This document shows, in pieces, positions 30,520 through 33,649 of a stretch of DNA of 35,483 nt. The translations under genes and the position numbers were made by a program. Numbering within the stretch: the stretch's first letter is position 1; each line of letters begins with the position of its first letter. Source of the stretch: an uncultured bacterium (GTDB lineage: Bacteria; Cyanobacteriota; Vampirovibrionia; Gastranaerophilales; Gastranaerophilaceae); contig CAMPBE010000012.1 of the NCBI GenBank assembly GCA_946636615.1, forward strand, positions 1 through 35,483, in the 5' to 3' direction. The notes under the pieces are model-generated. The model was not told where the DNA came from. It saw only the letters and a list, made by a program, of their open reading frames with translations, and did not search any database.

Positions 30520-30552
30520 AAAACTCCCGCCATATTGGGCGGGAGTTTTTTT
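30520..30552. terminator. bidirectional terminator between purA and the autotransporter
   Basis: A 12-base-pair stem AAAACTCCCGCC / GGCGGGAGTTTT with a six-base loop, then seven Ts on the plus strand. The minus strand ends in four Ts (complement of 30520-30523), so it can also stop the convergent gene. Confidence 0.92.
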
Positions 30553-33500
30553 AATCTTCATTAATAGTAGAAATTTTGAGATTTATCGGTTTTTTCGCTT
30601 CTTTGAGCACGTGTTTTTCGCCAGTCTGTTTTACTTTTTTAAATTCAGAGCTTTTAGCTGAAACCTTTATCTCATTTTTCGGGTTTTCAACTTTTTCTAT
30701 ATTTTTGTGATTTTTTCCGATAGCCCATCTCATACCTGCTGTAAGTGATATACCGTTACGTCCTCCGTTCTGAACCATAGCTTGTCCGTATGCTGTAAAG
30801 TTGTCTTTAACTTTCTTTTGAATACCGATTCCATATTGAATATATGGTCTTATACTCATATTTGGAAGATGTACACCGTTTGCTGTTACGTCAGATTTGT
30901 TCAAAACATTCCAAACCATATTAACTCCGATATATGGCTGCCATCCGTTTTTGGTGTTCATAATGAATTTAACACCGGGTGACAACTGTAAGTTGTTGAA
31001 CGGTTTTGATTCAATATTAACACCTGCGGCATTTTTGAAATCAAAAGTTTTTACGAAAGTATAACCAATGAATATATTTGGTTGAATAATATATCTTCCG
31101 CCTTTGAACTCAATGTTGTAACCTGTTTTGTTGCCAATACCTGCAAGAAGAGAAGTATTGTTTTCGTGACCGTACATTGTGTCGCTTTGGCTGACTGTAG
31201 CACCTGTTGAAATTGTTGTTGCGTTGAAGAAGTTGCCCTTGTATAACGATAATGTTCCTCCGATAAGTCCGCCGTTTTGATAGGTATCAACATTTGAATA
31301 GTGCATACTTGCACCATTGTAGCCGATATATCCTGTCCAATTGCGAGTCCATCCTTTTTTAAGTTCTTTAAAATCTGTATCGTATCCGACTAATGTTCCG
31401 TAGCTGATTGTTCTGACAGCAGGTCCGTTGTCGAGCGGAATGTTTTCAAAACTTGCATAAGGTTTTACCCAGACAGTAGTTGTATCAACAGGTTGGTAAA
31501 GAGGGTTTGTACCTCCTGTAAGCTCGCTTTGTTCTATTGCATATTTGTTTCTGTCAATCAACGCTTTTCTGTCAATTGATGGCATATCCATAAAAGAATC
31601 GGAACTTGCAAAAGAATAGTTGAAAGTATTTTGCATAGTTGCCATTGCACCAGCCTGAGCTGCAACGGGTGCTTCAATAACAGCGGGGTTGAAATTTCCT
31701 CCTCCGCCGTTTGCACCTCTTGCAAACATGAAGTAACCTTTGTTGTCATCTTCATCTATCATATATTTAACGTCATATTTGTATATTGGCGAATAAGAAA
31801 CAGTTTTTACGGTTGTATCTACGTTGTTTGCAAGATCTTCTTCTGCAAAGAATATTTTTGTATTTTCTTTTTCTGCATCGTTTAGAAGGTTCATACCGCT
31901 AACTGTAAGTTTCGCACCGTCTGTGATTGTGTAATTATTTCCTGTTTCTATATGGTCCATTTGCTCATTGACTAAATCTACATCTGCGACAAATTTTGTG
32001 TTACTGTTCAATGCTAAAGAATTAAATTCGTATGTGTGAATGTCGTTGTTAACTGTGTTGATTGTTGTGTTGTCAAAACCGACATTTGCGTTTTTAATAT
32101 CGTTATACAAATACATTGTACCTGTGCCGTCACCTTCAATGTTTACTGTGTAGCCGTCGGTACCGTTGATGTTGTCATACATGTACATTTTACCGTTGTT
32201 GAATTGTTGGAGATTTAATTTTTTATCTGCACCATCAACCCAAATTGCTTGGTAATCTTTTTCACCATCTCCTACTTGGACATAGTTATCTTTGAAGGTT
32301 GATGTGCCGTTATCTGCAATAACATTTAGGTCTTTATTTGTCCAAATAGCACCACCTTGGGCAGTTCCTGATTCAGATTTGGCATAGTTGCCGATGAAAT
32401 TAGAATCTTCAATATTCATTGTGCCTGAATTATATATTGCACCGCCCTGCGACTGCGCATGATTGGCAATAAAGTTTGAATTAACAATACCGCCTGAAAA
32501 GTTTTCATTTTCATCAATAAAACCTATAGTTGAATTATTATTTCCAATTGCACCACCCTTGTTTGCTGAATTACCTAAAAAATTAGCTCCGATAATATTA
32601 TCAATCCGACCAGACCAAACATTTAGGAGTGCACCACCTTGATTCCTTCCAGTATTTAAAGCATATGTTCCCTTTAGATTGTGAACAGTTCCTCCGGAAT
32701 TTTCAAGCGCACCACCACCATCATTTCCGGAATTGGCAATATATGTCCCGTCTAATGTGTCGATTGTTCCCCCCACATTATTTAGGACACCGCCAGATCC
32801 GTTTGAATGATTACCAATAAAATTACCTGTTATTAATTCAGAATGAGTTCTATTACTAATTGCACCACCACCATAAGCAGCAGTATAGTTCCCGATATAA
32901 TTACCAGTAATTAGCTCTGTAGGAGGGTTTGGGTTACTATTAAATATTGCGCCACCAGACAAATACGCACCACTTCCTATGAAATTGGCATCTACAGATG
33001 TAATATCTACACCACTACCGATTACACCACCATTACTATGACCATAACCATTTATAATAAAATCACCTGTATAGTTATTGTCAATTTGTGTTCCGTATAC
33101 TTTCTCATTGCCTGTACTTTGAATCGTTAATCTGTACGTTTCCGGATTCCAAGTGTAAGTTAGAGTTTGCTCCCCACTTGAATCAACATAAGTAGTTTTT
33201 GTTATATCGAGATATTTTGTTTGGCTTGTTAATTCATTTGTCAATGTATTCCATGAGTATATCGGCACTTCAATGGTTGTATTTGCATCTACTGTATTAT
33301 CTTTCAACGTAAAGCCGCTTCCATCCCCAAGTGCATCAGGAACATCGAAAGTAATTATTTCCGTAGCAAAGCCTGTAGCCATTCCCATGTCCTCCCTTGA
33401 GGGGAGGACCGAAATCTTTGATTTCGAGGTGGGTGTATACCCCGCCCCTGCATTCGTACGGCTTGCGCCTACGAATGCTTCCCCGCCCTCAAGGGGTGGG

Positions 33501-33598
33501 GATATTAATTCATCTGCAAAACAATATGTACCAAAACTCAAACCTATAAAAGTAGCCAATACGAGAGCTTTAAGAGTTACCCCCCCCCCCGAAAACAT
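30551..33598 (-). CDS. autotransporter with beta-helix passenger, phase-variable start and C-terminal tail
   Basis: The 1015-residue frame from ATG 33598 begins MFSGGG, encoded in part by an 11-G tract, then a signal-like hydrophobic core (9-28). Residues about 31-73 are the product of an inserted hairpin repeat. Residues about 200-420 are a beta-helix passenger of repeated units (NFIGN...GGAI-x-N). Residues 709-962 form the outer-membrane barrel domain (VWVKPYASFEN to MRWAIGK). A 53-residue lysine-rich tail (963-1015) follows the barrel, where autotransporters normally end in an aromatic residue. The better-supported start, ATG 33635 with AGAGGA, is in frame only with 10 Gs. The protein likely displays its passenger on the cell surface. 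The exact N-terminus is unsettled. Confidence 0.8.
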   Translation of the reverse strand: MFSGGGVTLKALVLATFIGLSFGTYCFADELISPPLEGGEAFVGASRTNAGAGYTPTSKSKISVLPSREDMGMATGFATEIITFDVPDALGDGSGFTLKDNTVDANTTIEVPIYSWNTLTNELTSQTKYLDITKTTYVDSSGEQTLTYTWNPETYRLTIQSTGNEKVYGTQIDNNYTGDFIINGYGHSNGGVIGSGVDITSVDANFIGSGAYLSGGAIFNSNPNPPTELITGNYIGNYTAAYGGGAISNRTHSELITGNFIGNHSNGSGGVLNNVGGTIDTLDGTYIANSGNDGGGALENSGGTVHNLKGTYALNTGRNQGGALLNVWSGRIDNIIGANFLGNSANKGGAIGNNNSTIGFIDENENFSGGIVNSNFIANHAQSQGGAIYNSGTMNIEDSNFIGNYAKSESGTAQGGAIWTNKDLNVIADNGTSTFKDNYVQVGDGEKDYQAIWVDGADKKLNLQQFNNGKMYMYDNINGTDGYTVNIEGDGTGTMYLYNDIKNANVGFDNTTINTVNNDIHTYEFNSLALNSNTKFVADVDLVNEQMDHIETGNNYTITDGAKLTVSGMNLLNDAEKENTKIFFAEEDLANNVDTTVKTVSYSPIYKYDVKYMIDEDDNKGYFMFARGANGGGGNFNPAVIEAPVAAQAGAMATMQNTFNYSFASSDSFMDMPSIDRKALIDRNKYAIEQSELTGGTNPLYQPVDTTTVWVKPYASFENIPLDNGPAVRTISYGTLVGYDTDFKELKKGWTRNWTGYIGYNGASMHYSNVDTYQNGGLIGGTLSLYKGNFFNATTISTGATVSQSDTMYGHENNTSLLAGIGNKTGYNIEFKGGRYIIQPNIFIGYTFVKTFDFKNAAGVNIESKPFNNLQLSPGVKFIMNTKNGWQPYIGVNMVWNVLNKSDVTANGVHLPNMSIRPYIQYGIGIQKKVKDNFTAYGQAMVQNGGRNGISLTAGMRWAIGKNHKNIEKVENPKNEIKVSAKSSEFKKVKQTGEKHVLKEAKKPINLKISTINED
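33386..33505. repeat. composite hairpin element inserted in frame at the autotransporter N-terminus
   Basis: This block is GC-rich against its AT-rich host gene and is a chain of short hairpins: TCCTCCC/GGGAGGA (33390-33408), GAAATC/GATTTC (33411-33425), GGGT/ACCC (33431-33442), CATTCGTA/TACGAATG (33451-33477) and a CCCCGCCCT-like stem (33482-33501). It encodes the extra peptide PPLEGGEAFVGASRTNAGAG and onward, directly after the signal region, without breaking the frame. Confidence 0.75.
33580..33590 (-). repeat. poly-G tract of 11, contingency-type homopolymer
   Basis: Eleven consecutive Gs on the coding (minus) strand lie seven bases after ATG 33598. With 11 the frame from that ATG stays open; with 10 it reads GGG GGG GGG TAA, and with 12 it hits a TAA soon after. 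Slippage here would switch expression. Confidence 0.9.
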
Positions 33599-33632
33599 GA
33601 CTACATGCGGGTTTTACACAACATATATTTTT

Positions 33633-33649
33633 CATGACCAATATCCTCT
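33633..33649 (-). promoter_or_regulatory. ribosome-binding site and upstream ATG of the autotransporter
   Basis: AGAGGA (complement of 33644-33649) lies eight bases before an ATG at 33635 that begins MKNICCVKPACSHVF and enters the G tract. With 11 Gs it reads FGGGGNS then a stop; with 10 Gs it joins VTLKALVLATFIG, giving a complete signal sequence. ATG 33598 has no such site. The rest of 33650-33800 shows no gene. Confidence 0.7.

Follow-up and report, generated by a model that had tools for sequence, protein, structure and literature searches.

A G11 tract with the layout of a phase switch in a Gastranaerophilales autotransporter gene, one of a dispersed family of poly-G tracts in surface genes

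The leader of a Pmp-like autotransporter gene in an uncultured member of the Gastranaerophilales carries an uninterrupted run of 11 Gs, which very likely works as a slipped-strand phase switch, although switching within a population is not shown, there being no reads, clones or peptides that could show it. The gene lies in the window, that is, the whole stretch of 35,483 nucleotides that was analysed, which is also an entire contig (C12) of its genome. In the proposed mechanism, slippage of the polymerase at replication would add or remove one G in the tract. A minority of cells with 10, 7 or 13 Gs would secrete and display the autotransporter, and in cells with 11 Gs the product would be a stub of 21 residues, with no more than a little protein added from an unaided downstream ATG. 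On this view the tract belongs to a module (leader, YTC-G10-CR, about 8 nt, ARGC) that is scattered over many surface genes, chiefly prepilin genes, of the genus and some of its relatives, usually with an assembled tract length at which the frame is closed. Default-OFF bet hedging, with each gene ON in few cells, is the most probable interpretation. The original prediction made for this window was essentially right, and the wider tract system is the larger finding.

Table 1. Features of the autotransporter locus, in positions of the window
Feature	Position	Strand	Remarks
AGAGGA ribosome-binding site of the upstream start	33644..33649	-	
ATG with ribosome-binding site	33633..33635	-	With 11 Gs, not in the frame of the long ORF
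Downstream ATG	33596..33598	-	In frame at 11 Gs; without ribosome-binding site
Conserved module around the tract	33565..33593	-	TTC-G11-TAACTCTTAAAGCT
G11 tract (putative switch)	33580..33590	-	
Signal-peptide-like hydrophobic core	33515..33580	-	VTLKALVLATFIGLSFGTYCFA; by eye only; counterpart in the tract-free paralogue L023
Autotransporter ORF	30551..33598	-	1015 aa if started at ATG 33598; about 1027 aa if started at ATG 33635 with 10 Gs
Passenger region, Pmp-like	32342..33031	-	GG(A/V)(I/L/F) and FxxN motifs
Autotransporter beta-barrel domain (TIGR01414)	30725..31489	-	Profile match
N-terminal peptides of interest for start usage			MKNICCVKPACSHVF, MFSGGG

By letter count, the tract in the first codons has exactly the 11 Gs that had been reported for it. 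The upstream start, ATG 33635, follows its AGAGGA at a spacing of 8 nt. Read from there at 11 Gs, the frame gives the peptide MKNICCVKPACSHVFGGGGNS and then stops at TAA 33572-33570, two codons beyond the tract; at 10 Gs, it joins the long frame and is connected to the hydrophobic core of the putative signal peptide, which was judged by eye without a predictor. The second start, ATG 33598, opens the intact ORF at 11 Gs, but it is not preceded by anything like a Shine-Dalgarno sequence, and it has an in-frame TAA close by on its 5' side. The layout originally described, with a well-spaced site and an early stop for the first start, the loss of one G connecting this start to the long protein, and an in-frame second start without a ribosome-binding site, is thus borne out in each of its parts. 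A homopolymer of at least 7 in a reading frame, whose length sets the frame, is the criterion for a poly-G slipped-strand phase-variable gene, and it is fulfilled here. None of 100 dinucleotide shuffles of the window contained an 11-G run. The module around the tract is a variant of the family motif YTC-G10-C(A/G)-pyrimidines-ARGC that is described below. The tract is the sole G run of at least 9 in its own 1.66-Mb genome; this rarity and its absence from the shuffles count in favour of the switch, and against it counts that the genome has no second tract.

The identification of the gene as an autotransporter, also part of the original prediction, is supported by a match of its C-terminal 326 residues to TIGR01414 (54.5 bits against a cut-off of 16, E 1e-14), a profile that also matches the 12 homologues aligned with it (13 of 13 members). 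A Pfam scan of the gene gave no match and a full-length NCBIfam scan missed the barrel, so the assignment depends on the excised domain. As far as sequence profiles can decide, the product meets the C-terminal beta-barrel criterion of a type V autotransporter. A PDB profile search found no relative, and a single-sequence structure prediction of the barrel was unusable (pLDDT 31). Of the two passenger motifs, GG(A/V)(I/L/F) occurs nine times, 40-fold over shuffled sequence, and FxxN seven times, a count that alone is not beyond shuffled sequence. By these motifs the passenger resembles chlamydial Pmps; no Pmp repeat model of Pfam or NCBIfam matched the gene, and we do not class it as a Pmp member.

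A paralogue in the same genome (L023) has 72% identity to the window gene over part of its length and no tract. In its start, MKKRLIFASIIALTLGFGETSFAAD, the ribosome-binding site leads directly into the signal core, and other tract-free homologues likewise have their start ATG directly before the core. The window gene has the additional codons ICCVKPACSHVFGGG(V) separating its start from the signal core, and the tract-free paralogue shows the tract to be an addition at this place. The same extra codons could be read as insertional decay, the ORF then being a recent pseudogene that was disrupted when the module inserted into it. This is scarcely credible, however, as about 1,000 codons remain open with the barrel domain intact, the same layout occurs in several genera, and more than 200 closed-frame genes keep long open frames.

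Four other autotransporter-like genes have a tract at the same place. One of them, L287 on the MAG contig JAAVBM010000077, reads TTTTTC-G10-TAACCTTTAAAGCT where the window reads TTTTC-G11-TAACTCTTAAAGCT, and its upstream ATG, with a GAGGA-type site before it, is in frame at 10 Gs. The others, L176 (another genus of the family), L165 and L166, likewise have 10 Gs, yet are out of frame. Homologous genes of the same layout therefore occur in both states, which, together with single-G differences elsewhere, supports the slippage-switch layout that had been proposed, even if the length mixture and the start in use are not shown. A difference in length between homologous tracts of otherwise similar flanks, a further criterion of a phase-variable gene, is also present: the window has 11 Gs against 10 in L287, and other homologous tracts differ as well. 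These homologues also bear on the possibility that the gene is constitutive from ATG 33598, with the tract a fixed low-complexity leader and the upstream start irrelevant. Such an account would fit the intact frame and the plausible signal core that follow this ATG, but it leaves the lack of a Shine-Dalgarno sequence unexplained; the paralogue and homologues begin at an ATG directly before the signal core, and the in-frame ATG of L287 is the one with the GAGGA-type site. We regard it as highly improbable. An assembly error is unlikely too, if less easily dismissed: homopolymers are error-prone, and a true length of 10, the usual one in the genus, would make the gene simply ON. Yet G9, G11 and G12 are also present in assemblies elsewhere, and even then the switch itself would remain intact. 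One miscount cannot account for the tract, its conserved flank or the family of tracts, as the original prediction had said of the tract itself.

The phase-switch reading gains its wider meaning from this family. The 33 genomes of the window's genus together contain 2,019 G runs of at least 9, with 0 to 176 per genome. Exactly 10 Gs are found in 1,621 (80%) of these runs, exactly 9 in 148 and exactly 11 in 150; in the genome G011, the length is exactly 10 in 169 of 176. Such strikingly uniform tracts, more uniform than in sequenced isolates of classic phase-variable species, count against a switch, and their uniformity may come from assembly of a population consensus or from a length that is in fact fixed. 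A shared modal length is what one would expect of consensus assemblies, given that the rates measured in Campylobacter jejuni drive poly-G tracts to 9-10 (PMC8224891). Truncation of homopolymers in long reads was considered as the source of the uniform G10 and rejected, the length being the same across several assemblers that, judged from the contig names, were probably short-read.

A total of 288 unique tracts were examined, from sampled stretches of the window's genus and of other Gastranaerophilales, and in 215 of them a single start with a ribosome-binding site and a single open frame could be clearly assigned. In 177 of the 215, the tract leads into a prepilin motif such as FTLAEVLITLGII; the rest belong to autotransporters and other proteins. 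Most tracts in callable genes lie 19-39 nt past the start. The flank is conserved (n = 159): a C precedes the run in 95% and follows it in 94%, and further 3' there is A or G, then a pyrimidine-rich stretch, with AGC about 8-9 nt on. When about 85,000 species genomes were scanned with the flank pattern, 113 stretches were returned, nearly all from Gastranaerophilales, Scatousia, 'Fusobacterium sp. CAG:439' or other MAGs; four from unrelated taxa look like chance. Within the family, TC-G10-C is common in the window's genus, modest in a few genera and absent from most. Even in the genus, three genomes (G000, G003 and G024) have 0-1 tracts against tens in most, and the window's genome has nine prepilin matches, none with a long G run. 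The scarcity of tracts in these species looks like lineage-specific loss or lack of expansion. A scan of viral contigs gave 2 matches, one of them with a pilin-type tract. In this entry of the viral collection, IMGVR_UViG_2523533517_000007 (L306:8804-8829), the tract module stands beside an apparent prepilin start; both a piece of host sequence and a phage-borne copy are possible.

At the assembled length, the frame from the ribosome-binding-site start is closed in 192 of the 215 tracts and open in 23. Against the one third expected open by chance, this gives P = 1e-14, a value that is only a guide because related copies are not independent. The downstream frames are open for hundreds of codons, indicating that the genes are maintained, and in the prepilin examples worked by hand (e.g., L076) there were no alternative upstream starts in the open frame. 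Closed at the modal length, each gene would be ON only in slipped cells. Four of 19 homologous tract pairs differ by one G, with flanks about 90-99% identical; thus L228 (11 Gs) is open and its homologue L237 (10 Gs) closed, and L303 (11) and L256 (10) are neighbouring paralogues on one contig. In the G001 assembly, scaffold gaps and duplicated tract ends of unequal length flank several tracts (L117, L128, L129 and L130), as would be expected if reads disagreed on tract length.

The uniform length of 10 could also be explained by programmed recoding, in which a tract of constant length gives a set fraction of full-length protein through ribosomal frameshifting or through slippage of RNA polymerase on the G or C run. 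It would accord with this that most tracts in the window's genus need 11 (or 8) Gs for an open frame, so that nearly all the genes need the same one-base correction, regardless of which of the two bases, G or C, forms the run in the mRNA. In another genus, though, the open frame requires 9 or 12 Gs for G10 tracts and 10 or 13 for G11 tracts. A correction of opposite sign is difficult to reconcile with a single fixed frameshifting device and speaks for a modal length at which the frame is merely closed. Homologues with 11 or 8 Gs are, moreover, open directly, and the window gene and L287 share the flank and differ in length and state. Recoding is thus very unlikely, and slippage of the tract itself remains the preferred explanation.

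The tracts are also placed with respect to the DNA strand. In none of 26 stretches of at least 7 kb with several motif tracts were the orientations mixed; the G run was always on a single strand. All 47 runs of at least 8 on G011:C1 are on one strand, with at least nine of their genes in the opposite direction, and there is one strand switch on G001:C52. Of 170 cases, 137 have the run on the strand richer in G; with a skew above 0.04, the count is 102 of 111. This suggests that the G runs are placed on the leading strand, with GC skew as the sole basis and the replication direction of the window itself undetermined. The position of dnaA does not mark the strand switch, so the leading-strand placement remains an inference from the skew. 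A KOPS- or Chi-like polarity signal was considered for the strand lock and disfavoured because the tracts lie in the first codons of genes.

As to how the module came to be in so many genes, empty-site mapping of its ends yielded few usable pairs. What these showed was not a clean insertion but 5' modules exchanged wholesale between nearly identical pilin bodies. In two pairs (L104 and L101 of G013:C1; L078 and L128), the prepilin bodies are nearly identical and the 5' parts unrelated; the similarity breaks off at the FTLAE codons, which looks like an exchange of leader modules by gene conversion. It is conceivable, with the balance slightly against it at present, that gene conversion or a mobile process has carried the G10 module, with its conserved flank, into the leaders of surface genes in Gastranaerophilales, up to about 170 of them in a genome. 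The G run would in every case be on the same replication strand, irrespective of gene direction, and nearly every gene would be OFF at the equilibrium length. If so, the pilins and adhesins on any one cell would be a small, random selection.

What is known of poly-G phase variation comes mostly from a few pathogens. The nearest likeness to the window gene is found in the PmpG-type autotransporters of Chlamydia, which have many paralogues and in which changes in poly-G length switch expression (PMC6740158). Both are autotransporters with a poly-G run and with GGA(I/V) and FxxN passenger repeats. The window gene differs in that it matches no Pmp model and comes from an unrelated phylum, its run lies in the leader before the signal core, and its flanking module is shared with prepilin genes. 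Campylobacter jejuni has 29 tracts of at least 7 Gs (PMC4965091), compared with up to 176 runs of at least 9 Gs per genome here. Its poly-G/poly-C contingency loci have in common with the present tracts the intragenic G runs (7-13), the single-base changes and the surface functions; unlike them, the tracts here have a sharper single-length peak, a conserved flank and one strand, and mostly belong to prepilins. Neisseria meningitidis, with 115 predicted repeat-controlled genes (PMC5084427), is similar in having a very large repeat-controlled gene set in one genome, but the tracts here have a single unit type (G10), a fixed flanking motif and a single strand orientation. What is new in comparison with known poly-G switching is the scale, the conserved flank, the strand lock and the default-closed framing. 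No paper joining Gastranaerophilales or Melainabacteria with such phase variation was found in the open-access literature, to which the search was confined.

If the system is confirmed, few sets of switchable genes built on a single repeat would be larger than that of these uncultured gut relatives of cyanobacteria, with pilins and autotransporters at its centre. Through the conserved flank and the strand lock it becomes possible to test how contingency tracts originate and spread, and whether they are controlled by the direction of replication. A word of caution is in order for annotation, as gene callers will shorten or overlook many such tract genes.

Several smaller observations may be added. 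In a subset of tract genes (L256, L060, L050, L198 and others), the tract module lies 5' of an apparently complete promoter (TTGTAA...TATAAT), which is a few bases before the prepilin ATG, and the frame is open through the promoter; such genes may have two starts, one possibly leaderless. Two homologous autotransporters (L005:1340 and L014:2362) contain an internal G10 or C10 run, which in L014 immediately precedes the barrel; AGC or AGCT stands at the usual distance from it. In the window gene itself, a palindromic repeat (33389-33501, SPPLEGGEAFVGASRTNAGAGYTPTSKSKISVLPSREDMG) lies in frame just past the signal region. The paralogue L023 is without most of it, and partial copies occur at about ten other places in the genome, several of them at contig ends.
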